In this document: piece after piece, positions 29,194-63,132 of the stretch
How the letters are laid out: every line of letters begins with the position of its first letter
Numbering within the stretch: the first letter of the stretch is position 1
Assembly (NCBI GenBank): GCA_021845905.1
Contig: JAJZVA010000001.1
Span: forward strand, 124,001 to 188,000
Length of the DNA stretch: 64,000 nt
DNA from: Pseudomonadota bacterium
GTDB taxonomy: Bacteria; Pseudomonadota; Alphaproteobacteria; Micavibrionales; UBA2020
Reading direction: 5' to 3'
The notes under the pieces: generated by a model
Databases searched by the model: none
What the model saw: only the letters and a program-made list of their open reading frames with translations
What the model was told of the DNA's origin: nothing
Program-made: the position numbers and the translations under genes

Positions 29194-30459
29194 ATGGACG
29201 ATGAAGTTGTCAGAATGATGGATGGAAGGCTACACCTTTACCGTCGTGAAGGGAGCAAATACTGGCAATGCGCTGCCTATATGAATGGCCATAATTACCG
29301 CCAAACCACCAAGGAAAGCAACATTGCCCATGCCAAAGCCTTTGCCAAAGACTGGTACATGGAACTCTACGTCGAGGAGCGCCGCCGCAAGCGCGGCGGG
29401 GAATCGCTTCTTGTAGACAGTTTTATTGAAGTCACCGCCTCCTCGCCTGACCGCCGCCAGCGCCACCTCAAAGGCGGCGTGACCTTCCGGCAGGCTACGG
29501 ATATATTTTTTAAGGAATATGAAACCATAACCCATGGTGAGCGTAATGCTGAATACGTTGCTGGGAAAAGGCATCATATCAGAGTCCATTTATTACCCTT
29601 CTTTGGCGACAAGGCATTGAGCGAGATTACCGCGGGACTGGTGCAGGAATATCGCGCATATCGCCAAACCTCCCGTCTCGATCCAAAAACAAAAAAGCCA
29701 AAAAAACCTGCGCGCGCCACGCTGCATAGTGAAATTGTGACCCTCAGACAAATCCTGAAAATGGCCAACCGGAAAGGGTGGATTGTCGCCGTACCGGACT
29801 TGTCGACGGCCTATAGGTCATCCGGCAAGGTCGAGCATCGCGCATGGTTTTCTCCCACTGAGTATAAAATGCTCTATGAACATACCCGCAAACGCGCCCA
29901 AAACCCGCCCAATCCGCGCTGGAAAGACATTTGCGAGACATTCCATGACTATGTGCTGTTCATGGGGAATACGGGATTGAGGCCGGATGAATCTGCACGC
30001 CTTGAAATGCGTGACGTTACGATTGTACACGACGAAGCAACGAGCGAGAATATCCTCGAAATCGAAGTGCGCGGCAAGCGCGGCGTCGGTTATTGCAAAT
30101 CCATGCCAGGGGCCGTCCTGCCCTTTGAGCGTCTTTGCAAGCGCAAGAACCTTAATCCTACTGACAGGATATTCGGCAAAACACCGCGTGAATTGATGAA
30201 CACTGTTCTTGATGAACTCAATTTGAAATTCGACCGCGATGGACATGTACGCACATGTTATAGCCTCCGCCATACTTATATCTGCCTGAGATTGCTCGAA
30301 GGCGCGGACATCTATCAGGTGGCGAAAAACTGCCGTACCTCTGTTGAAATGATCGAAAAGCACTATGCACGGCATCTAAAGAACAATATCGATACAGCCG
30401 CCATAAACGTGATGAAACCTAAAAACAGGCCTAAAAACAAAGGCAAAAAAGATCATTAA
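29194..30459 (+). CDS. Tyrosine recombinase/integrase
   Basis: 421 aa; MGNTGLRPDESARLEM, CYSLRHTYICLRLLEGADIYQVAKNCRTSVEMIEKHYARH (R...HxxR...Y). Confidence 0.95.
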   Translation: MDDEVVRMMDGRLHLYRREGSKYWQCAAYMNGHNYRQTTKESNIAHAKAFAKDWYMELYVEERRRKRGGESLLVDSFIEVTASSPDRRQRHLKGGVTFRQATDIFFKEYETITHGERNAEYVAGKRHHIRVHLLPFFGDKALSEITAGLVQEYRAYRQTSRLDPKTKKPKKPARATLHSEIVTLRQILKMANRKGWIVAVPDLSTAYRSSGKVEHRAWFSPTEYKMLYEHTRKRAQNPPNPRWKDICETFHDYVLFMGNTGLRPDESARLEMRDVTIVHDEATSENILEIEVRGKRGVGYCKSMPGAVLPFERLCKRKNLNPTDRIFGKTPRELMNTVLDELNLKFDRDGHVRTCYSLRHTYICLRLLEGADIYQVAKNCRTSVEMIEKHYARHLKNNIDTAAINVMKPKNRPKNKGKKDH

Positions 30460-30524: not shown

Positions 30525-30608
30525 GCCCCTGTGGCGGAATTGGCAGACGCGCTGGATTCAAAATCCTGTTCTGGCAACAGAGTGTCGGTTCGACCCCGAC
30601 CGGGGGCA
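30525..30608 (+). tRNA. tRNA-Leu(CAA), intact, inside the element
   Basis: Acceptor GCCCCTG/CGGGGGC, loop TTCAAAA, long variable arm, T-stem GTCGG/CCGAC, encoded CCA at 30609-30611. Confidence 0.95.
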
Positions 30609-30731
30609 CCACTTCCCTCCGAAATCCGTATCCCGAAACAGCCGAAGAACTTCGGCGCGAAATACGTTACCGTGGAGCACCAAGGTCGAACGACCGGCTG
30701 CGAGACGCGCGCAATGACAGGCGAGCGCCTG

Positions 30732-33675: not shown

Positions 33676-34008
33676 TCATCTTTCTTCCAGCAGCGCTTTC
33701 CTCACATCTTCCTCAGACCAATGAAGCCGCTGCGGCGCGCCACTCAGGAGGGTGGCGCGCTTTTTGGTGATGACGGTGCCGACTTTATGCGGCAGGAGTT
33801 CTCTGGCGACGGTGTTTTCGAGGAGTTCGGATTTCAGGATGGTGAGTTTGATGAAGTCGCCGTCCATCTCAATGACTTGCGCGATGATCTTTTGCTTGCC
33901 GACGGGGCGGGGCTTGCTACGCCGTCTTGTTTTTCTGCGCGGCCAGATCGCCTCCGTCCATTCTATGACGTCGGAGGTAACAAAACTGTCTGATTGCTCC
34001 CACGTCAT
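33676..34008 (-). CDS. Hypothetical protein downstream of relaxase
   Basis: Overlapping operon with relaxase. Confidence 0.5.
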   Translation of the reverse strand: MTWEQSDSFVTSDVIEWTEAIWPRRKTRRRSKPRPVGKQKIIAQVIEMDGDFIKLTILKSELLENTVARELLPHKVGTVITKKRATLLSGAPQRLHWSEEDVRKALLEER

Positions 34009-35921
34009 TGTGGCCTCCGTTGTGCATTAAATTTTGCGGAGGCCTTGCGGGATTTCTCTGGCTTGACGGCGCGTGCATCATCGTCCGGACGCAGGCCCGC
34101 GCGGCGGAGGAGTTCTTTTGTTTCAAGGACACTGGAGCGCAGGTTGACCGTCGCCATAGGCGGATCGATTGGCGGGCGCGGACGGGGCGTAAACACGGTT
34201 TTCAGAAGCTCGCTGTTGCTCTGCTGACGCAAGGCATCGGTATAGGCACGCTCATCCAGCCGCTGTTCCGGCGGCGGGGACATGACGCTGATCTCCCATC
34301 GCGGGATGCCGTTCAAGGCATAGCTCATGTTCATGGCGATGTCGTAAAACTGCCTGTTCGCCGCAATTTTGCGGTTTTCCTCTTCCAGCTTCACTTGTAA
34401 TTCAGCGTATCGCCGGATGTATTCATTGTACTCTGCCTGCCGCTCGGCGTATTCGCGTTCTCTTTCCTGCGCCATTTCCTGACGCTTTTCTTGCGTGGCT
34501 TTGAGGTTCAGCGTTTCAAGCGTGACCTCGATCATGCGCCGCAGCGCGCCGCGCATATCGTCGGAGAGAAGGCTGCTCTCAAGTGCAGATTGCAACTGGG
34601 TAATATCGCCCGTCAGCAGGGCGATCTTGCTTTGCACCTCGGCCATTTCTGCCTTAATGGAAACGGCAGTGGAGGGTTTGACGGTTTGTAGCGGCTCCGT
34701 GGCCGTCGCAACATAGCCCGCGATCTCCCGCCGAATGCGCAAAGCCTCTGTTTTTTGCTCTTCCTTATAGACCTTGACGGTCTTTTGCAGTTCCTGCCGC
34801 TCCTGCAGGTGCGACCGCACAAGCTCGTGCAGCTCCTGCCTGTCGCGTTCCAGCGCGGCGCGGGTCTCGGCTTCGTTCTGGGCACGGACTTTTTTATATG
34901 CGCCTGTGGCCTTGTGCCAGATGCCGCGAAATCCCCTTGGTATCCGCGCCACGCGAACGCGGGTCTCTTCAACCCAGCGGGCTTGCTGTTTTTCAATGAG
35001 AGTCTGCCGTTCTTTGCGCTGCACCGCAACCATGGCGCGGATTTCGCGCACCAATGGCGCGCGCACGTCTTTCGACCGCCGTTTGGCTTCGGCGAGATAG
35101 TCCGTCAGGTTCTCGTCCATGCGGGCGGAGAGGAATTCCTTCGCCTGCCCGATAGCGGGCAGAGCTTCCGGTTTGCCGAGGCGGGCTTTGAGGTCGCGTG
35201 TGCCGATGTCGAGCCAGCGCGTCAGGGAATAGACGCCGCCCGTGATATCGAGCGCGACGAAGCCGCGCCGGTCGCCGCGGGCAAGCAAAAACCCGCGCTC
35301 CTGCAGGGCGCGGGCAAAGGTTTCCTTGCTGTCGGACTGCGCCCATGCACTTTTGAGCAGGGCTTTCAGCGCCTCCGGGTCTTGCGAGAAGCGCACGGCT
35401 TGCCGGTATTCGTGCCGCGTCAACTGCCACGGGCTGCGATCCGATGCACGCATCATGCCTTTCGGCAGTTTCCATCCATATTTAAGAAATAAAAAGCGCG
35501 ATATTTCCATGAGCTTCAGCTTGAAGTGGCTCATGCGGACGGCGATCATCCGCTGTGCATGCTCCGACCACTTGAGCCGCGACCAGACGCAATGACAGTG
35601 CCGCCGCCCGTTTTTCTCGTGAAATACGATAATGCGCGGCTGATCGACCAGACCCAGCTTTTTCTCGACATCTGTAATGGCAGATTCGAAGTCGCCGACA
35701 GGCACGTCGGCATATTCTGGCGGGCTTAAAGACAGCGAGAACATGAACTGGCGACAGCTTGTGCCGCGACTAATGGCTTCGATCTCCTGCAATGCCCCTG
35801 AGAGATCGTCGGCGACAAAGCCGCGTATCTCGTGGACTGTGATATGGTCGTTCTCGTCACCATTCAGCAGGTGTTTGGCCAGTTCCCCGGTTCCTCTGCG
35901 CTGACTGGCCTTGAGGATCAT
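34005..35921 (-). CDS. Relaxase/mobilization nuclease
   Basis: GTSCRQFMFSLSLSPPE and IIVFHEKNGRRHCHCVWSRL (HxH metal-binding motif), long coiled-coil C-terminus. Confidence 0.88.
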   Translation of the reverse strand: MILKASQRRGTGELAKHLLNGDENDHITVHEIRGFVADDLSGALQEIEAISRGTSCRQFMFSLSLSPPEYADVPVGDFESAITDVEKKLGLVDQPRIIVFHEKNGRRHCHCVWSRLKWSEHAQRMIAVRMSHFKLKLMEISRFLFLKYGWKLPKGMMRASDRSPWQLTRHEYRQAVRFSQDPEALKALLKSAWAQSDSKETFARALQERGFLLARGDRRGFVALDITGGVYSLTRWLDIGTRDLKARLGKPEALPAIGQAKEFLSARMDENLTDYLAEAKRRSKDVRAPLVREIRAMVAVQRKERQTLIEKQQARWVEETRVRVARIPRGFRGIWHKATGAYKKVRAQNEAETRAALERDRQELHELVRSHLQERQELQKTVKVYKEEQKTEALRIRREIAGYVATATEPLQTVKPSTAVSIKAEMAEVQSKIALLTGDITQLQSALESSLLSDDMRGALRRMIEVTLETLNLKATQEKRQEMAQEREREYAERQAEYNEYIRRYAELQVKLEEENRKIAANRQFYDIAMNMSYALNGIPRWEISVMSPPPEQRLDERAYTDALRQQSNSELLKTVFTPRPRPPIDPPMATVNLRSSVLETKELLRRAGLRPDDDARAVKPEKSRKASAKFNAQRRPQ

Positions 35922-36325
35922 GGCCTTGGCTCCGGCGGCGGGAAGCCAAGAGCTTGCGTAATATTATTGCGCATCGCTCTGATGTCCGTGCAGGCGGCCA
36001 GAATGGCGTTTTCCGCCTCCGGCGAGGCGGGATAGGAGCCGGAGTGAATGGCTTTGGCGATCTGGTTCAGGTTCGAGGACAGGCGCGACTGGCCGAGCTG
36101 GGACAACACGGCGCTTAAAGCCTGCTCGTCCTGCACCGGACGGCGGCGGCGTACGGTGCGTGGAGAGGGTGCGTCAAATAACTGTTCCCGGATGTAATCG
36201 CCGATGGTCTGCGGCCCCGCTGCCGCATCGAGCTTCTCCCGTTCCTCGGGCGTGAGGCGAAGGGTGAACGTCGGAGGGTAAGGCCTGCCCGACGGCGGAT
36301 CAACCTTGCGGTTTTCGTCCGTCAT
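35918..36325 (-). CDS. MobC-like relaxosome protein
   Basis: FTLRLTPEEREKLDAAAGPQTIGDYIREQLF...SRLSSNLNQIAKAIHSG; ATGA overlap with relaxase. Confidence 0.85.
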   Translation of the reverse strand: MTDENRKVDPPSGRPYPPTFTLRLTPEEREKLDAAAGPQTIGDYIREQLFDAPSPRTVRRRRPVQDEQALSAVLSQLGQSRLSSNLNQIAKAIHSGSYPASPEAENAILAACTDIRAMRNNITQALGFPPPEPRP

Positions 36326-36457
36326 ACGCCCTCCTTTCGCTTTTTTCCTATACTTCAAGCGTAGCGCGCGTTTATTAACTGAAGTTTAAAGAAACCCTTG
36401 CGGCATCGCACCATTGTTGCGTTGCGACATTGACGAATACACGTGGAACTGATACTC

Positions 36458-37190
36458 ATTCACACATTGTTAAGCATGTGAATCCAAAACCGGATTTTCG
36501 CTGAAACTTTAGGAAAACTGCGGCTTTCAGCCGCCCGCCAAAGGCGGGTAACATTGTTTCAAAGAATATTTTTCTGAAGAGCCGCGCTTCCGCGCGGAAT
36601 GGCAAGCTGTGCCTTGTAGTACAAAAGCCGAGTCGCTTTTGTACCCAAGACCGAGCTTGGCAAGGGCGGGGGTATCCCCCGCCCGTTGCATCCCGCCCCG
36701 GAGGGGAAGGGTAATGCCGCAAGCCAGAGGCTCGCCTGTTTACCCCTCACGATGCAACCCTGTTTCTGGGCTACATACCCACCCCGCATGCATCACGGAA
36801 TGAAGAAGGCCGTCTGTTCTCACGACAGGACGGCGTCATCCCGGGAAGCCCGAAAGGGTGTTCTGGGCCGCACCCTTTAAAACCCCAAGGCTGCCTTTGG
36901 GTACCAAAATGTCATTAAAATTTTGTTACCCGAGCAGGCACAACCGTTCTGCCGGTTAAGCATAGGTTAGGGAGATGTGTCTCTCCCTGACGACCCATAG
37001 CTTCAAAGGCGTTCCTGCCCTTGAAAATCCAGACCGACGGGAGAATTCCGTCCTCCCTCCAGACAACCTTCGACCCGCCTTTGCGCCTGTTGAAACGATT
37101 CGTCGCTCTTGTAACTTCTTTGGTGCATACGGACTTGAATACGTTTGTATGCATAGAACATCAGACCCTACGGATTCCGTAGATTCTCGG
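36458..37190. other. Serial hairpin tract B (oriT candidate region upstream of mobC)
   Basis: More than a dozen consecutive inverted repeats, e.g. 36619-36644 (10 bp), 36664-36684 (9 bp), 36853-36878 (8 bp), 36969-36988 (7 bp), 37168-37182 (6 bp). Confidence 0.75.
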
Positions 37191-37357: not shown

Positions 37358-40300
37358 ATGGGCAAAATCTTATCTAGGATTCCTTCATTTTCCCGCCGCC
37401 TGCAGCGTGCAGGATTTATCGTTTTTATTGCAGCAACGACAATATCATCGCTTTTTACAAAACCGGCGTACGCTATCACAACCTCATCTTCAACAGCTTC
37501 CCAATACATTTTAGAGCAGGCAAATATTAAAACTTTGCCTCCCGCAAGGAGTACGGGTGTCCATCATTTTGTCAAGGCCCAAGCAGCGCTTGGCAAATTT
37601 TTCTACACCTTACCTGGCATACAACAGCCTTTTGAAGGGTGGGCTGCGTTTGACCAAAACTGCAACTATCTGGCACCCTTAAGTGCGCAAATCATCACGC
37701 CACCGTCTCATGGTACTATTAGTTTCAGTACATTCTATGGCACTTCTCTCTTTGGAAGCTGCGCGGGAGTATACGGGAATTACGATGTAGCTTCCTATAT
37801 CTGGACAGACCAAAACAGTTCCCCCAGCACGACAGACTCGTTCGTCCTGCGCTGGACGAACCCGGAAAACGGTCAATCATTCGACAGCGACTGGACTGTT
37901 ATTCTCTTGGCTCCACCGATTGACACATCTAAAGCTCTCGGCAAACAAGGAGGTCCTTGCGGGTGTAATGGTACAGCCCCCGGCACCAGCAATCCATCAA
38001 ATACCGGAGCTGTCAGTGGCGGAGAGCCTTTTAGCATAGGGATTGGCAACGTCTTTAACCAGGTGACGGACTATACGACGTCTGGTCGTAATCCATTGCG
38101 GTTTGTGCGGTATTACAACAGCATGTCAGTGCCGAGATACGCCATGAATCTAGGGTCTAACTGGCGTGACAACTATGATAGATACCTGAGTGTCTATACG
38201 GGGGCTGTGACGGCGTATCGCGCCGACGGACAAGTGCTGACCTTCTCACAGGACGCGAACGGCAACTGGACGAGCGACACGGATGTTGACGCGAAGCTGA
38301 CCAATCTCGGCACGTCGTGGTATCTGACCGACCACAACGACACGGTCGAGACCTATCAGCAGACCACAAGCGGCAGCGAGGCGCTTCTGCAAACCATTGT
38401 TTCGCGCGACGGCTACACGCGCACGCTCTATTATAATGGCTCCAATGTACTGCAGCGCGTCGCGGACTCCTACGGCCGGCAGCTGACTTTCACTTACAAT
38501 CAGGGGCTGCTCTCGCAAGTCGGCACGGCGGGGTCGCTGGTGCTGACTTATGATTATACGTCGAGCGGCGTGACGCCGGGACGGAACGACCAGCTCGCCT
38601 CTGTCACCTACAACACCACGCCTGCGACCAAACAGGTCTATGCCTACGTGAACAATTACGACCTTGCCTCGATCACCGACGAGAACGGCAACGTCTTCGC
38701 AAGCTGGACATATGACAGCCAGAACCGCGCCACATCGAGCCAGCACGCGGGCGGGGCAGATCTGACGCAGATCGCCTATAACGATACGGACGGCAGCCGC
38801 ACGGTCACGGGGCCGCTCGGACAGCAGACGGTTTACACTTTCCAGACCCTGCAGGGCGTGCCGAAGGTCGTGAAGATCGAGCGCACGGCTTCCGGGACGG
38901 TTCCGGCGGGCACGGAGACTTTCACCTATGATTCCAATGGCTACACGGCGAGCAAGACGGACTGGAACGGCATCGAGACAGACTATATAAATGATGCCCA
39001 CGGCGACCCGACCAGCATCACCGAGGCCGCCGGCACGCCGCAGACGCGCACAACCACCATCACCTATGACGCGACGCACGTGCATCTGCCAGACCAGATC
39101 GCCGCGCCCGGCCTGACCACGACCTTCACCTACGACGCCAACGGCAACCCGCTTACCCGCACCGGAACGGACACGACCGGCAATGGCGGCACGCGCACCT
39201 GGGCCTACACCTACGATGCCACCGGCCATATGCTGACCATGACCGACCCGCGCGGGAACAAGACCGTCTATACATATAATAATGACAGCGTCGCGACCGT
39301 CACCAACGCGCTTGCGCAAACCTCGAAGATCACGTCCACCAACCTCAGCGGCCTGCCGCTCGCAATGACAGATCCGAACGGCGTGACAACGACGTTCACC
39401 TATGATGTGCGCAATCGCCTTCTCAGCCGCACGATTGACGGCGCGGCCACCACCTTCACCTATGATCCGGCGGGCAATCTCACGTCCATCACCCTGCCCG
39501 ACGGCGCGATGCTCGATTATACCTATGACGCCGCCCACCGTGTGACGGGAGTCTCCAGCAACGCCGGCGACAGCATCCATTACACGCTCGATGCCAACGG
39601 CGACATCACGCAGCAGCAGGTCGAGGGGGGTAGCACCATCGCCAAAACCCAGTCCGCCGTGTTCGACAGCCTCGGCCGCATGCTCAGGCAGATCGGCGCC
39701 TATAACGAGACGACCTCCTATACTTACGACGCCAACGGCAACAACATCGGCATCACCGATGCCCTGAACAACACCACGGCGCAGAGCTTCGATGCCCTGA
39801 ACCGGCTGATCAAGTCGGTTGATCCGCTGAGCAACGCGACGTCCACTGCCTATGACGCGCAGGACAACCTCACCTCCGTCACCGACCCGCGCAATCTTAG
39901 CACCACTTATACATATGACGGCTTCGGCGACGTATTGACAGAAACCTCTCCCGATACCGGCACGACGTCCTTCACCTACGACGCCATGGGCAACCCCGTG
40001 ACGCAAAAGGACGCGCGCGGCGTGGAGACGGACCGCACGTTCGATGCCTTGAACCGCGTCACGGCCGAGACTTATCCTTCCAGTTCCGGCGACAACGTGA
40101 CCTACACTTACGATCAGGGCCAATACGGCATCGGCCGCCTGACCAGCTTCACGGACGCGAGCGGCGGCACTTCATATACCTATAACGCGCGGGGGGATAT
40201 CACCGGAGACACCCGCACTATCGGCAGAAACAGCTACACCACGTCCTATGCCTACGACCTTGCCGACCGGCTGGCCGCGATCACCTACCCCGACGGGCAA

Positions 40301-42043
40301 ACGGTCAATTACGCCCGCGACGCCTTCGGACGGATCTCCGGCGTCACGCTGGCGGCAGCGCAGGATCACGACCGCGACCATGACCGCGACGACTTCTGGC
40401 ATCACGACAAGCGCCGCGGCGCGCAGAGCCTGCAGCTGCTCTCCGGCGTCGGTTATGAACCCTTCGGCCCGGTTGACGGCTTCACCTGCGGCAACGGGAT
40501 CAAAGAAACCCTGACGTACGATCAGGACTACCGCCTGACCGGCATCCTCGCCAAAGGCGGCAGCACCATCCAGAACCTGACATATGCTTATGACGGCGTC
40601 TCCGACATCGCGTCGATCACCGACAACGCCGCGACAGGCGGCAAGAACCGGCGCGACCGCGACGGCGACAACGATGACAGGGACAACGGCTTCTCCTTAA
40701 GCCAGACCTTCACCTACGACGCGGACATGCGCCTGCTCACCGCCGCGGGCGCGTACGGCACGCAAACTTTCGCCTACGACGCCGACGGCAACAGGACAAG
40801 TTTCTCGGTCACGGGCGCAGGCCGCCCTGAATACCGCGACGGTCGCGACCATAGCGCACCGCTCGCCGGCGCTTACACCTACGACTCAGGCTCGAACCGC
40901 CTCCTCGGCGTCACCGGCGCGAAGAACGTGCAATACGGCTACACCGCGAACGGCGACCTGCAGCGCGAGAGCGACGGCTACGACGTCCGCCAGTTCGTCT
41001 ACGACGCCCGCAACCGCAACACGGCGATCGAAGCGGGCGGCGAAGGCGACGGCAGTGCGCGCTACGTCTACAACGCTCTCGGCGAGCGCGTGCGGAAATC
41101 CGGCGGCGGCCATGACGACTTCAGCGGCTTCGGCGGCAAGACCGACTTCATCTACGACGAACAAGGCCACCTGATCGCCGAAGCGAACGACGGCCGCGTG
41201 ACGAAGGAATACGTCTATCTCGGCAGCCTGCCCGTCGCGGAACTGGAGAACAATCAGGTCTATTACATCCACGATGACCACCTCGGCCAGCCGCAAACCA
41301 TCACCGACGCGAGCCAGCATGTGGTCTGGAGCCGCGCCGCCGATCCCTTCGGCAACACCACCGCCGTCAAGGGCGACCCCGATCTCACCAACCTCCGCTT
41401 CCCGGGCCAGTATCATGACGCCGAATCCGGCCTCGACTATAACATGTTCCGCTCTTACAACCCATCCATCGGACGCTACACGCAATCTGATCCCATCGGA
41501 CTATTGGGCGGCATTAATACCTATGCCTATGTCGTGGGGAATCCGGTTAACTTTGTTGACCCAAGTGGACTTGATACTCTGCAGATCGGTTTTGCTGGCG
41601 GGGGATCAATATTCGGTTTTGTTATTCCGCAAGGAGGATTCGGAATCACTATTGATACTCATGGCAATATAGGAACTTATACATACGGCGGACTTGGCGG
41701 TGGAATAGGCGCTGGCGGCAGCTTTGGAGGAAGCATACAATTCTCTAGTGCCCAAACAATCTATGATCTTCAAGGCTACTTCTATAATGCAGGTTTTCAT
41801 GGAGGCGCTGGCTATGGGGGATCGTTTGATGTCTTCAGCGGCAATAGTAATAATGGGCCAGTGATGGGCGGCGGGGTAACTCTTGGAGGCGGTGAAGGCG
41901 CATCTGGGACGCTTACAAAAACTTGGACACAAGTTTGCGGGGCGCAAGGTTGCACTCCTGCTATCCCCACTTCAGCACCTCAAACTCCTGCGCCTCAAAA
42001 ACCGAAGACAAATGAATGTCTCCCCAGCAGTCCAAATAGCTGA
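37358..42043 (+). CDS. RHS/YD-repeat protein with Gly-rich variable C-terminus
   Basis: N-terminal hydrophobic segment, GGEPFSIGIGNVFNQVTDYTTSGRNPLRFVRYYNS, many YD repeats, core DAESGLDYNMFRSYNPSIGRYTQSDPIGLLGGINTYAYVVGNPVNFVDPSGL. Confidence 0.95.
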   Translation: MGKILSRIPSFSRRLQRAGFIVFIAATTISSLFTKPAYAITTSSSTASQYILEQANIKTLPPARSTGVHHFVKAQAALGKFFYTLPGIQQPFEGWAAFDQNCNYLAPLSAQIITPPSHGTISFSTFYGTSLFGSCAGVYGNYDVASYIWTDQNSSPSTTDSFVLRWTNPENGQSFDSDWTVILLAPPIDTSKALGKQGGPCGCNGTAPGTSNPSNTGAVSGGEPFSIGIGNVFNQVTDYTTSGRNPLRFVRYYNSMSVPRYAMNLGSNWRDNYDRYLSVYTGAVTAYRADGQVLTFSQDANGNWTSDTDVDAKLTNLGTSWYLTDHNDTVETYQQTTSGSEALLQTIVSRDGYTRTLYYNGSNVLQRVADSYGRQLTFTYNQGLLSQVGTAGSLVLTYDYTSSGVTPGRNDQLASVTYNTTPATKQVYAYVNNYDLASITDENGNVFASWTYDSQNRATSSQHAGGADLTQIAYNDTDGSRTVTGPLGQQTVYTFQTLQGVPKVVKIERTASGTVPAGTETFTYDSNGYTASKTDWNGIETDYINDAHGDPTSITEAAGTPQTRTTTITYDATHVHLPDQIAAPGLTTTFTYDANGNPLTRTGTDTTGNGGTRTWAYTYDATGHMLTMTDPRGNKTVYTYNNDSVATVTNALAQTSKITSTNLSGLPLAMTDPNGVTTTFTYDVRNRLLSRTIDGAATTFTYDPAGNLTSITLPDGAMLDYTYDAAHRVTGVSSNAGDSIHYTLDANGDITQQQVEGGSTIAKTQSAVFDSLGRMLRQIGAYNETTSYTYDANGNNIGITDALNNTTAQSFDALNRLIKSVDPLSNATSTAYDAQDNLTSVTDPRNLSTTYTYDGFGDVLTETSPDTGTTSFTYDAMGNPVTQKDARGVETDRTFDALNRVTAETYPSSSGDNVTYTYDQGQYGIGRLTSFTDASGGTSYTYNARGDITGDTRTIGRNSYTTSYAYDLADRLAAITYPDGQTVNYARDAFGRISGVTLAAAQDHDRDHDRDDFWHHDKRRGAQSLQLLSGVGYEPFGPVDGFTCGNGIKETLTYDQDYRLTGILAKGGSTIQNLTYAYDGVSDIASITDNAATGGKNRRDRDGDNDDRDNGFSLSQTFTYDADMRLLTAAGAYGTQTFAYDADGNRTSFSVTGAGRPEYRDGRDHSAPLAGAYTYDSGSNRLLGVTGAKNVQYGYTANGDLQRESDGYDVRQFVYDARNRNTAIEAGGEGDGSARYVYNALGERVRKSGGGHDDFSGFGGKTDFIYDEQGHLIAEANDGRVTKEYVYLGSLPVAELENNQVYYIHDDHLGQPQTITDASQHVVWSRAADPFGNTTAVKGDPDLTNLRFPGQYHDAESGLDYNMFRSYNPSIGRYTQSDPIGLLGGINTYAYVVGNPVNFVDPSGLDTLQIGFAGGGSIFGFVIPQGGFGITIDTHGNIGTYTYGGLGGGIGAGGSFGGSIQFSSAQTIYDLQGYFYNAGFHGGAGYGGSFDVFSGNSNNGPVMGGGVTLGGGEGASGTLTKTWTQVCGAQGCTPAIPTSAPQTPAPQKPKTNECLPSSPNS

Positions 42044-43905: not shown

Positions 43906-46900
43906 TTAGAAATGAAGCGTCGCACGCAGTTCTCCGGTGTGCGATGTATAGTCAGACTTGTACTGGAAGTCGTAATTCGCCGAAAAATCCCAGTTTGAAA
44001 CTGTCGCATAAACGACATTCGCACCAAGATCAAAGGTGTTGCGCGCAGGCGATGCGCCTGTCGTGGTAAAGAGCGTATTCGCCGGATCGCCCGTGAAGCT
44101 CGACGACGTCTGTACCTTATCGTCGATCGCACTATAGGTATAGCCCGCATGCACGCCCGGTTTCACGATATCGCCCTGATCGTCGGCTTTGATCTTCCAG
44201 CGCGCGTTGACGCCAAGCCCCAGATCCAGAACGTTCTGGTCGTTGCCCTTGACGGTCAGGTCGGAAGCGCCGGCGCCCGTTTCCGTGTAACCCGCCGTTT
44301 TCAGGTAGGTATAGTTAACGGAAGCGAGCGGCGTCAGCGTCATGCCACCCGACATGGCGTAGTTACGTCCCAAAGCGGCTCTGGCCGTGTACTGGTCGCT
44401 ATGGGTCTTCCCGACGGCAGTGTCACCGGCGAGGTCGGCATTGTGGCGGTCGCTGGTGAGCGTATTATAGGCGTAGCCCAACTGACCGTTGACGAAAGTA
44501 TTCTCCGGCATCTTGTATGTGCCGTAGAAGTTTCCGCCATAATTGTCCATGGTCGTCCTGGTCGTGTTCGCATTATGCGAATCGATCCACGACTGGCCAT
44601 AATTGAGGGCGAAACCGACGACGCTGCCGCCTGGCAGGTTCTGAGTGTCGATACCGACAGCGCCACCCGCCGTATTGCTGCTGAAACCGTCGACGCTGCT
44701 GCGCGTATCCTGATGCGCGTGCTGGCCATAGCCTTCAAACCATGTGTTGAGGCCCTGTGACGAATAGCCCGCCGCAACACCGCTGGTCGTATCGCCGGTG
44801 CGCAACGCCGCCAGACGGGTATCGATAATTCCCCCCGTCTCGTCGCCGACAGCCAAAGCGGCCTGCTCGGCGCCGCCATCAACCGTCGGCTGCAAGGACT
44901 GGAGGCTGGTGTGCAGGGCCGCAGTCGAGCCGCCGGAAGCGAGCAAGTTCTCGGCGGTGGCGAGGTTGCCCGTCGCGGTGGCCTTGATCGCGTCCAGAAC
45001 CGAACCGACGGCGAGGTCGTTGCTCGTCAAAGCCGATCCCAGCGACGAGGTGATCGCCTCGCGCGTCGCGTCGACTTCGAGCTGATGGCCCGAAACGACT
45101 TCCTGATACTGCATGAGGCCGACGGTGGATGCCGTCGTCGTCACTGTCTGGCCGTTGACCTTCAGCGTGGTGCCGAGGACGTTGGAAGCGTCGGTGCCGG
45201 ACACAAGTACGTAGTTATGCGTCGCACTGACGTTGTTCGTGAAGTTGACGGTCGAGCCGGTGGCCAGGGTGACAAGGTTCGCGCCCGCGGCCACGTTCCC
45301 GTATACAGTGGAGCTGTAAGACGTGGCGTTCAGGGTCTGGCCCGCACCGAGAGTGAAGGTTCCGCCATCCGTCAGGGTGTTGATCCCGAGATTGGTGGTG
45401 TCGGCGGCGGCCACGTTGCCGGACGTCGTCACGGTGATCGCCGTGCCAGCCGTCGGATTGTTCAGGGTCAGTGCTTTCAGGACGCCCGTGTTGCCGATCG
45501 TAGAGACCGAGGCGCTCGTCGCGTCGAGCGTGGCCGTGCCGACCCCAGAGCCGACCGCGCCGCCCGTGCCGTTGAGGGAGCCGGTGAAGGCACCGTCAAA
45601 CGTCGTCGAACCCGTCGCGGCCGCGCCGAAGACGAGGGCGCCGTTCGCCGTGCTTTCGAAGGTCGCCGCGTCTGCGCCGGTCACGTTGATCGTCGTCGCA
45701 GCGACGGCGTTGACGAACTTCGTTGCCACCGTCGAGCTAGCATTGACGGTCTTCAGCGAAGTTGTGCCGATCGCGCCGGTAATGGTTTGCGTGCCGGTGC
45801 CGTCCAGCGTCAGCGTGCCATTGCCGGCAGCGCCGCCGATGACGCCGCCGGTGAAGGTCGCCGCCGCGCCCTTGACATCGAGGGTGGCGTTTCCTGCCGC
45901 GCCGTCCGTCAGGTTGGTCGCGCCGGTGACCGTGTTGGTCGCGCCGTCGAGAGTCAGGGTCGCGTTCGCGCCCGCCGTCGCCGCGGCCGTAACGTTCAGA
46001 CTGCCCGCATCCGTGAAGGCGCCGGTGACCGTCGCGGATTCAGCCTGTGCGGTCGTTGCGCCTGCACTCGATACGCTCATGCCGGACGTGCCGGCCGACA
46101 AAGTGCTGCCGAAGGCCATGCTGCCGGCATTGGCCGCGTCCGTAGTGCCGCTAATGGCGACCGACCCCGCGTAGACCGCGCCGGAAACCGACGAGGCCGT
46201 GCCTTCCACGCCGGCTTTAAAAACCTTAGCCTCATCCGTTGACGAGCCGATCGTGCCGGTGATCGTCGAGGCGCCGTTCAGCGTGACCGTGCCTTGATTG
46301 GTTGTTGCCGTGGTGATGTTGCCTGTCAGGTTCGCACCCGCGCCGAGAGTAAGGGTGCCGTCATTCGTGCCGAAGGCGACGGTGCCGACGTTGTTCGTGC
46401 CCACGCCGTTCAGGGCGACGGCGTTCGTGCCGGTGAAATCCAGAGCCGTCGCGTTGACAAGGCCGCTGATGGAGGCGTTGCCGCCCGCCCCCGCGTTGAT
46501 CAGTTTCAGCAGTTTCGATGTCGTGCCGACCGTGCCGGTGACGGCGCCCGTGCCGTCAAACGTCAGGGTGCCGGTGTTGGTGGTCGCGGTGGTGATTGTG
46601 CTGGCCAGCGTGCCACCCGCGCCGATGTGGAGCGTGCCGTCTCCGTTGAAGGTCGTGTTGGTGACCGTGTCGGTGCCGGCGTCGTTCAGCGCGAGGGAGC
46701 CCGTGCTGGTGATGCTGAGGGTGGTCGCATTGACCGCGCCCGCGATGGAAGACGTCGTGCCGCTCGCGCCCGCGTCGACTTCATGCAGGAGAGTCCCCAC
46801 CGCGCCCCAAGCGCCCGCGCCCGTGATGGCATTGGACCCCTTCAAAATCACCGTGCCTTCGTCGGTCGCATTGGCAGCAATGCCCGCCGTCAACGTATCG

Positions 46901-47589
46901 GTCGTGTTGGCAGTGCCGAAAATCAGCTCGGCCTTGCCGCCCGTGCCGCCCGCGACGTCCTTCAGCGTGACGGCGCCGGTCAGCGTGTTGCTGGCATTGT
47001 TCAGGGTCAGGGTGGCGTCGGAGCCCGCGGCCGTGCCGGCCGTGATCGCCGTCGCGCCTGTGACCGCAGCCGCGCCAGTGACCGTCAGGTTGGTCGCGGC
47101 GGTCGAGGTCGTGCCAACGTTGTCGATGGTCAGCGCGCCGCCCAACGTCAGCGCGCCGGAGTCGGTCACGTTGACGGCCTTGTTCGCCGTGTTATTGTTG
47201 GTGATTGTCATCGCGTTGGCGCCAGTTCCCGAGTTCGTCACGGAGCCGATAGTGACGGAAAGAGGGTTGGTCGTCCCCGCGGCAGCCTGCGTAATGTTGA
47301 TCGCGCCCGCGCCCGCGACGCTGTTATCAATCGTGCCGAGAGAGAACGTATCCTTGTTCGCGCTTCCATCGTTCGCCGTCTGGTCATTGGTGACCGTCAG
47401 GGCAAACGTGGCAAGGTTGACGTTGTCGCCCTTCCCGGTGCCTACCGCAGGCAGACCGTTGGCGTTATAGCCCCATGTGCCGTTCGCGGTCAGCGTATCT
47501 GTCGCCGCCTGTGCTTGCGTTGAGAAAGCGGCGACCGCGACGAGAGCCGTCGTGGCGAGAAGAACTTTTCTAAGGCGAACGATGGGCAT
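43906..47589 (-). CDS. Type V autotransporter adhesin (repetitive passenger, C-terminal beta-barrel)
   Basis: Signal peptide, repetitive GTGA/TLT-rich passenger, barrel ending SHTGELRATLHF. Confidence 0.92.
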   Translation of the reverse strand: MPIVRLRKVLLATTALVAVAAFSTQAQAATDTLTANGTWGYNANGLPAVGTGKGDNVNLATFALTVTNDQTANDGSANKDTFSLGTIDNSVAGAGAINITQAAAGTTNPLSVTIGSVTNSGTGANAMTITNNNTANKAVNVTDSGALTLGGALTIDNVGTTSTAATNLTVTGAAAVTGATAITAGTAAGSDATLTLNNASNTLTGAVTLKDVAGGTGGKAELIFGTANTTDTLTAGIAANATDEGTVILKGSNAITGAGAWGAVGTLLHEVDAGASGTTSSIAGAVNATTLSITSTGSLALNDAGTDTVTNTTFNGDGTLHIGAGGTLASTITTATTNTGTLTFDGTGAVTGTVGTTSKLLKLINAGAGGNASISGLVNATALDFTGTNAVALNGVGTNNVGTVAFGTNDGTLTLGAGANLTGNITTATTNQGTVTLNGASTITGTIGSSTDEAKVFKAGVEGTASSVSGAVYAGSVAISGTTDAANAGSMAFGSTLSAGTSGMSVSSAGATTAQAESATVTGAFTDAGSLNVTAAATAGANATLTLDGATNTVTGATNLTDGAAGNATLDVKGAAATFTGGVIGGAAGNGTLTLDGTGTQTITGAIGTTSLKTVNASSTVATKFVNAVAATTINVTGADAATFESTANGALVFGAAATGSTTFDGAFTGSLNGTGGAVGSGVGTATLDATSASVSTIGNTGVLKALTLNNPTAGTAITVTTSGNVAAADTTNLGINTLTDGGTFTLGAGQTLNATSYSSTVYGNVAAGANLVTLATGSTVNFTNNVSATHNYVLVSGTDASNVLGTTLKVNGQTVTTTASTVGLMQYQEVVSGHQLEVDATREAITSSLGSALTSNDLAVGSVLDAIKATATGNLATAENLLASGGSTAALHTSLQSLQPTVDGGAEQAALAVGDETGGIIDTRLAALRTGDTTSGVAAGYSSQGLNTWFEGYGQHAHQDTRSSVDGFSSNTAGGAVGIDTQNLPGGSVVGFALNYGQSWIDSHNANTTRTTMDNYGGNFYGTYKMPENTFVNGQLGYAYNTLTSDRHNADLAGDTAVGKTHSDQYTARAALGRNYAMSGGMTLTPLASVNYTYLKTAGYTETGAGASDLTVKGNDQNVLDLGLGVNARWKIKADDQGDIVKPGVHAGYTYSAIDDKVQTSSSFTGDPANTLFTTTGASPARNTFDLGANVVYATVSNWDFSANYDFQYKSDYTSHTGELRATLHF

Positions 47590-47806
47590 GATTGACGATC
47601 CTTATGTTTGTCAGTTGATTTAAAAATTGAATTTCAGTCTGGCAGGATATGGGGCATGCGGACTAAAGTAGTCCGTGCAATATATGTAGCAGGATTAAGT
47701 GCTTTCACCAACCCCTGATGGGGATGATTCAATGAGTTTTATTAGCGCTGTGACATATTACTGCTACTTCCTTTTTGTTTTATGAAAGCGTTTAATAACA
47801 AATTAA

Positions 47807-57718: not shown

Positions 57719-57860
57719 CCGCTTGTGGAAATTCTCAAGCGGCTTCAAATTCCGCTTCAAGCCGCTAGCGAAGCCGCTTCGCACGCTTCAAGCCGCTTGC
57801 CCCAAAGCCCCGAAATCCCGCTTCGGAAGCCGCTTCAACCGCTTCCGAAGCGGCTTCATG
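57601..57860. repeat. Dense AAGCCGCTTC-type repeat cluster
   Basis: 30-bp perfect direct repeat CCGCTTCAAGCCGCTAGCGAAGCCGCTTCG at 57617-57646 and 57752-57781, plus many short copies in both orientations. Confidence 0.85.
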
Positions 57861-57897
57861 GCGCTATTATGTCAGCATATGCCGTTATCAGGGCTTT

Positions 57898-57981
57898 GAT
57901 AGTACTATCGTATGCCGCCATATGGCGGCATACCGCATGAAAACCGTGATAATAATTGGATTATGGCAGGTTCTATGCCAT
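57898..57981. promoter_or_regulatory. Three palindromes upstream of hsdM
   Basis: GATAGTACTATC (57898-57909), GTATGCCGCCATATGGCGGCATAC (57910-57933), ATGGCA-N7-TGCCAT (57963-57981). Confidence 0.55.
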
Positions 57982-58021
57982 ACTTTGCCGCCAATATAGA
58001 TATTTTTTCAAAGAGTTAGTT

Positions 58022-62173: not shown

Positions 62174-63132
62174 GCGCTTCTTATCATTACCCTCCAGAAT
62201 TAATGACCATTCTTAAAGACGCCATACCAAAACTTTGTAAATCAAAAAGAGATTTACTGACTTTCTTCAAAGGGTGCGGCATCCAAAACGAAATTGTTCA
62301 ACCATTTGAGACGCTACTTAAAGAAGACAAAGAAAATTTTAACAAGTACCGCGTTACTGCTGAACTTTTAGAAAAAATAAATGAATTGGGCGATAACGGA
62401 ATACGCCTTCGCCGTGAACTTTTAAAAAGGGTCACGGAAATTGAAGACTTTTCTATTTGCTGGGAAAATGACCAAGCCGCTGCTAGGGGATTGGTTTCTC
62501 AAATTCGAGATATCGTTAACGTCAAAGACAGTTTTACGCGGATGCGTAATGAAAAAGAAGCAGAACAAAGAAAAAGGATTGAGGCTGAACAAGCCGCCAT
62601 TACAAAAAATAAAGAAAAGGCCGATAAAATAGAAAAAGCAAAATCGGCATTTTTTGCTCTTTTTGGAGAAGATAATCCCCATACACGCGGTAAACGTCTG
62701 GAAAAAGCATTGACAGATTTGTTTGATGCTTTTGAGATTACGGTGAAAGAAGCTTTCACCGTCAAGGCTCCTGATACGGACCAAGTCGTAGAACAGATTG
62801 ACGGTATGGTAGAACTTGAAGGCCATATTTACCTCACAGAAATGAAATGGTGGAAAAACAGTATCGGCGTTGCAGAAATATCTCCACACCTCGTCAGGGT
62901 TTTTAGTAGAGGTGGTCAAGCAAGGGCTTTCTTTATTTCGTATTCAAATTTCACAGAACCAGCCATTCAGCAATGCAGAGACGCCTTAGCGGGCGGGGCT
63001 ATTGTATGCCTTGTGCAAGTAGAAGAAATTGTAGACGCCCTTAATTCCGGGGCGGACTTGAAGAAGCTTTTGAAAAAGAAAGTACAAGCTGCAATTTCGC
63101 ACAAGAACCCCTTATTTAGGGATGTAGCATAA
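62170..63132 (+). CDS. Restriction endonuclease-like protein (Mrr/PD-(D/E)XK type)
   Basis: RGKRLEKALTDLFDAF...QIDGMVELEGHIYLTEMKWWKNSIGVAEI: D...ExK pattern; ATGA overlap with hsdS. Confidence 0.75.
   Translation: MSASYHYPPELMTILKDAIPKLCKSKRDLLTFFKGCGIQNEIVQPFETLLKEDKENFNKYRVTAELLEKINELGDNGIRLRRELLKRVTEIEDFSICWENDQAAARGLVSQIRDIVNVKDSFTRMRNEKEAEQRKRIEAEQAAITKNKEKADKIEKAKSAFFALFGEDNPHTRGKRLEKALTDLFDAFEITVKEAFTVKAPDTDQVVEQIDGMVELEGHIYLTEMKWWKNSIGVAEISPHLVRVFSRGGQARAFFISYSNFTEPAIQQCRDALAGGAIVCLVQVEEIVDALNSGADLKKLLKKKVQAAISHKNPLFRDVA

Follow-up and report, generated by a model that had tools for sequence, protein, structure and literature searches.

A conserved two-hairpin element beside mobilization genes: a probable origin of transfer within a long hairpin array

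The window analysed here, a stretch of DNA 64,000 nucleotides in length, carries a tract at 36458-37190, upstream of a mobC-like gene, in which hairpins of differing sequence follow one another. The question raised by this locus is what such a tract is for. All of the stems quoted in the original prediction were found in it, among them GTACAAAAGC/GCTTTTGTAC at 36619-36644, GGGCGGGGG-TAT-CCCCCGCCC at 36664-36684, and the CTACGG-ATT-CCGTAG hairpin at 37169..37183 (+) that forms the tract end. 

The tract had been described as composed almost entirely of inverted repeats, which is an overstatement because simple near-perfect stems of at least 7 pairs fill about a third of it (~32% of 795 nt). It is nevertheless hairpin-rich and exceeds shuffled controls in both hairpin density and folding. 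Folded as RNA, the whole tract has z-scores of -7.5 (+) and -9.6 (-) against dinucleotide shuffles and, folded as DNA, of -5.5, with 0 shuffles equal in each case. Sliding 200-nt windows reach their lowest z at 36501-36700 (-5.0/-6.5, +/-) and stay mostly between -2.5 and -5 onward to ~37300, while the 154 windows elsewhere average -0.45 (sd 1.37); the segment 36701-36900 is unexceptional on the + strand alone (z -0.65). Two of the background windows also fold strongly on both strands, 57801-58000 (z about -6) and 62601-62800 (z about -4).

Within the tract lies a conserved core of ~120 nt at 36571..36694 (+), as described by a covariance model, R1. In an alignment of 12 cores it consists of two adjacent hairpins directly followed by an unpaired ATCCC. 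The first hairpin is built on an inverted repeat that reads CAAG[C/A/G]TGTG ... [G/T/C]CTTG across copies, with inner stems inside. In the window it lies at 36603..36659 (+), with CAAG[C]TGTG and [G]CTTG arms and covarying inner stems, and 12 of its 21 pairs are changed on both sides. The second, GCAAGGG...CCCGTTGC at 36660..36689 (+), is likewise seen in the alignment and covariation, its closing pair changing from GCAA/TTGC to GAAA/TTTC outside the window's family. Over the core as a whole, 15 of 31 pairs are altered on both sides, 91% of the alignment cells are paired (76% in shuffles), and the covariation score is 0.362, compared with 0.105 in shuffles and 0.05-0.13 in slid controls. The stems are thus kept across homologues with compensatory changes. 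The claim that there is far more here than one oriT hairpin is borne out, since the core alone has two and a long structured array extends beyond the putative nick. Shuffled GC-rich intergenic sequence does still give hairpins (6 stems, against 14 in the tract), as expected if the hairpins were chance composition or repetitive junk. The folding z-scores, the conservation and the covariation oppose that reading, which was ruled out and has a negligible probability.

The genes beside the tract are those of a mobilization system. A MobA/VirD2-like relaxase of 638 aa is encoded at 34005..35921 (-) (PF03432, E 1.9e-7, above the gathering score), and its catalytic stretch includes HxxxxRHxHxV. The 'mobC' gene at 35918..36325 (-) encodes a NikA-like ribbon-helix-helix mobilization protein, for which the PF21983 match (E 2e-5) falls just below the gathering score; the Verrucomicrobial homologues exceed this threshold. 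On the other side the tract adjoins cargo, a Rhs/YD-repeat protein at 37358..42043 (+) with 11 PF05593 repeats. In one genome, two copies of the element precede a gene whose product begins MGKI(L/F): in the window this is the Rhs/YD-repeat gene (37358-42043), and the second such gene is in L022 (from about 8870). An integrase (29194-30459) sits on the 5' side of a tRNA-Leu (30525-30611), and no direct repeat matching the 3' end of this tRNA was found around the mob locus.

The core recurs with such genes. Six cores were found with R1 in the window's own 2.42 Mb genome, where partial copies of the tract have 71-88% identity, and more tract copies occur in relatives from the same family. Of 142 genomes of the order, 30 carry the core, and so do 5 of 299 from across the phylum; the window's own genome is part of both counts. 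The relaxase is present in 26 of the 30 genomes with a core and 16 of the 112 without (odds ratio 39, p 1.3e-13), a p value made optimistic by genome relatedness, with many of the comparisons resting on related copies. Nearly all full copies are directly upstream of a mobC-like gene and divergent from it, and the relaxase is 0.2-2 kb from every core checked (families f1 and f5).

No plasmid homologues were found by DNA similarity. Matches to the core are located upstream of mobC/relaxase genes in the Frigidibacter plasmid pcai42B (E 2.7e-8), the Sphingopyxis plasmid pSREG01 (E 1.8e-5), a Xanthomonas conjugative plasmid (E 9.6e-5) and, weakly, Sinorhizobium pSymB (E 0.0045). In two Verrucomicrobia (L088 and L090; E 1e-11 and 7e-10) the core is between an integrase/recombinase and the mobC (nikA)-relaxase genes. 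The relaxase and the RHH accessory gene are therefore found beside the core in elements of independent origin, and this position across plasmids and Verrucomicrobia is the one expected of an oriT. In pattern scans, the matches retained were from Micavibrio, Alphaproteobacteria and two Verrucomicrobia; most of those in genome contigs were chance, with the closing base unpaired or no GTTGC after, and two in viral contigs were put down to chance, in what looks like coding sequence.

Both its location and its co-occurrence thus link this conserved pair of hairpins to a NikA-like protein and a MobA/VirD2 relaxase. From its sequence and context, 36571-36694 is very probably the oriT of a NikA/MOBP relaxosome, and to this extent the oriT part of the original prediction is well supported. 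The tract as a whole is best read as the extended oriT region of an integrated mobilizable element with an array at its leading end, for which the probability is put at about 0.72. The suggestion of a leading region with ssDNA promoters finds no support in the window's cargo if the + strand is the T-strand. The Rhs gene is on the + strand and reads away from the putative nick, therefore an incoming + T-strand could not template it.

In RP4, the mob genes lie on the far side from the nick and are transferred last. The putative nick region here is CATCCC at 36689..36694 (+, the strand being presumed), at the unpaired conserved end of the core. The core terminus, GTTGCATCCC, is near the MOBP nick consensus, (C/T)ATCCTG(C/T) (PMC3772185). 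The CATCCC end, or CATCCT in Verrucomicrobia, matches 5-6 of the central bases of that consensus, the TG of ATCCTG being replaced by C or T, then C. The opposite strand bears CACA[G/T]CTTG^C, which is similar to the RYGCTTG|C nick class (PMC7755788). The candidate nick positions are CATCC on the + strand and CACAGCTTG on the - strand, and this rival motif makes the choice of nicked strand tentative. The + strand is favoured because the conserved unpaired stretch trails the hairpin and because the resulting layout matches RP4; in Verrucomicrobia and the plasmids the core faces the mob genes the other way round, which counts against the model.

On this basis, NikA-like dimers would bind the CAAG.TGTG/CTTG inverted repeat and the relaxase would nick the unpaired CATCC at the core end. 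The + strand would leave first, making the hairpin array the leading end, with the mob genes last as in RP4. The array itself may function as a folded single strand, and it is somewhat more probable than not that it acts in transfer in some single-stranded form. The simplest form of this would be ssDNA structure in the leading T-strand, on which proteins could bind or priming could start once in the recipient. The promoter conserved upstream of the tract suggests, in addition, a transcript that spans the oriT.

The array has both a pre-core and a post-nick part. The pre-core segment (36466..36597, +), with its conserved TAAGC..GTGAATCC, has hairpins at 36520-36534, 36534-36548 and 36582-36597 (+); its sequence is conserved and RNAalifold gave it no consensus fold. 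Beyond the putative nick, all on the + strand, are a hairpin module GAAGGGTAATGCCGC...CCTGTTTACCCCTC with a conserved internal loop (36706..36748), the hairpins GGAATGAAGAAGGCCGTC...GACGGCGTCATCC (36790..36846) and AAAGGGTG/CACCCTTT (36853..36878), and additional hairpins at 36899-36931, 36966-36991 and 37002-37025 (within 36899..37025). The window's block at 36790-36880 has a z of -4.1 against column shuffles (4 copies). One post-nick domain, compared among 9 copies that come from several genomes, has kept its sequence as well as its fold (z -5.5, column shuffles, 0/100 equal), and its unpaired bases are conserved too.

In the window's family, 700-1000 nt of hairpins surround the core, differing by copy and having modules in common, and in one related family the core is likewise, more weakly, in a modular array of 700-1000 nt. 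Across 21 tracts (18 of family f1 and 3 of f5), the mean z-scores (+/-) are -2.1/-1.9 before the core, -3.8/-4.6 in the core, -3.5/-3.8 over the 200 nt that follow it and -1.5/-1.8 farther on. Post-core structure is weaker in other lineages (mean z -2.1 in f3, none in Verrucomicrobia), and is also present in two plasmids and some f3 copies. Some tails (for example L030, L029, L021 and L020) have repeated hairpin-plus-TGCAT units resembling a degraded second oriT hairpin and nick region, which suggests growth by duplication. Pairing of the core with the mobC leader via GAGTCG was considered and dropped, the loop being missing from several copies. Nothing credible was matched in Rfam by the window at E up to 10 or by a second copy at E up to 1.

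A promoter-like pair, TTGACG-N17-TACTCA at 36430..36458 (+), reads into the tract. In the window's family, TTGAC(N)-N17/18-TA stands in this place in all but one of 18 copies (17 of 18), with an identity between copies of 0.94 in the -35 and 0.35 in the spacer. The -10 is weak in the window's copy and degenerate among copies, because of which a strict sigma-70 scan does not call the pair. No convincing terminator was found at the tract end. On the mobC side, 53-68 bp from the pair in the family copies, is a TTAA-N7-TTAA box (36375..36389, no strand assigned), also in 17 of 18 copies. This is the CtrA motif in alphaproteobacteria, so the box is a putative CtrA site. The only other one in the 64-kb window, at 47792, is about 200 bp upstream of a large autotransporter-like gene (43906-47589).

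The stem mismatches give an indication of which strand folds. Among single mismatches in the stems of the tracts, 57 are of the A.C type and 17 of the G.T type, the shuffled expectation being about 33:19 (p 0.004-0.016, by stem length). Often an A next to a G-run of the 5' arm is opposite a C on the 3' arm, in differing hairpins of the 21 copies. The A.C excess is more easily explained if the minus strand folds than if the plus strand does, and so conflicts with the promoter-like pair and the favoured nick, which are on the plus strand. The raw folding energy is lower for the minus strand in nearly all copies; this was not used as proof because the composition-corrected z-scores are near equal.

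These observations bear on what the array might be other than a leading-end structure. It could be mainly a promoter-driven, structured noncoding RNA of ~700-1000 nt that spans the oriT, with the oriT hairpins as its middle. The TTGAC-N17/18-TA pair kept in 17 of 18 copies despite a diverged spacer, the post-nick domain with its conserved fold and unpaired bases, and the precedent of sgm-sRNA, which is made next to an oriT and is essential for mobilization (PMC9299015), speak for this. The mismatch asymmetry opposes an RNA from the + strand, the strict promoter scan was empty and the tract end has no convincing terminator. There is also no Rfam match, the pre-core segment lacks a consensus fold, and around the cores of other lineages there is little structure, nor was a promoter of this type seen. 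The multi-stem RNA of the original prediction thus has a promoter-like pair and a post-nick fold in its favour, with the mismatches speaking against one from the + strand, and as the main role of the array it is unlikely, if the strongest of the alternatives. A bolder version, in which a family of chromosomal elements makes a large, modular structured RNA by transcription across its oriT, with cell-cycle (CtrA) control, and needs this RNA for mobilization, is doubtful. If true, RNA-dependent transfer would have a second example, unrelated to SGI1 and with a classical relaxase.

The mismatches would be better explained by a minus-strand structured RNA or leader that lies upstream of mobC, runs in its direction and regulates the mob operon, for they resemble minus-strand G.U wobbles, and the folding z of the core is on average slightly stronger on that strand. 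This is improbable given that the right end of the tract showed no recognisable conserved promoter, that a promoter-like box for mobC (36345-36390) is between the tract and mobC, and that composition-corrected folding is almost equal on both strands. Rather less improbable, and still unlikely, is an array that is either a set of protein sites at the DNA level or the leftovers of repeated oriT duplication, accumulated without a function of their own. The recurrent hairpin-plus-nick-like units in the tails and the differences between tails of copies within one genome are in its favour. However, relics would not be expected to keep the sequence and fold of the post-nick domain, as seen in 9 copies from several genomes.

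For a widespread family of relaxases, the R1 model locates the probable transfer origin in chromosomes of more than one phylum, and also finds site-only elements relying on relaxases elsewhere. In related genomes, divergent pairs of cores sandwich cargo (L148 6460-7164, L149 4666-5260, L150 5349-6154, L151 4961-5884, L152 5539-9255, L157 4935-6410 and L160 5054-6653), which includes a DUF4262 protein, a pentapeptide-repeat protein, a trypsin-like protein (weak defence-family matches) and unknowns. On their nick side these loci often carry a gene for a large serine recombinase together with a small conserved ORF (MKPDxxKYL..). The distance to the nearest relaxase of this relaxase family is in most cases tens to hundreds of kb, so that they are apparently elements with an oriT only, mobilized in trans. 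As many as 14 cores were found in one 2.4-Mb genome. With ~20 natural variants keeping a long hairpin array around the oriT, the role of the leading-end structure or RNA is testable.

Comparison with known systems places the window's element among integrative mobilizable elements (IMEs) in having chromosomal copies, mob genes without adjacent conjugation apparatus, and an integrase or recombinase beside some copies, although its boundaries were not found when a tRNA-Leu-matching direct repeat was sought around the mob locus. Hairpin DNA at the leading end is shared with Frpo/ssi sequences. Frpo-type ssDNA promoters need leading genes templated by the T-strand (PMC11541004), whereas the Rhs gene is oppositely oriented if + is the T-strand, and there is no leading-region gene set. 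The sgm-sRNA/oriT module of SGI1 is alike in belonging to a mobilizable island and in having a TTGAC-type promoter across a ~700-nt noncoding region adjacent to oriT; the sgm-sRNA is 650-700 nt, has the promoter ttgacg-16-taatat and is essential for mobilization (PMC9299015). SGI1 differs in using the tyrosine-recombinase-like MpsA rather than a PF03432 relaxase, no sequence relation was seen, and the RNA is demonstrated for SGI1 and suggested here.

The closest likeness is to the MOBP oriT of RP4 and R64, with their NikA/TraJ-type accessory proteins. In these too an inverted repeat adjoins an unpaired, conserved nick region of the CATCC type, and the genes for a NikA-like RHH protein and a PF03432 relaxase are divergent from the oriT; the layout is RP4-like, the putative nick and the relaxase genes being on opposite sides. 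The elements described here differ in the nick hexamer, CATCCC/CATCCT and not ATCCTG, in a core of two adjacent hairpins, in having several copies per chromosome and, in the window's family, in the 700-1000 nt of modular hairpins around the core. The oriT proposed here would thus belong to the NikA/MOBP kind, with its nick sequence and long array as the variant features.
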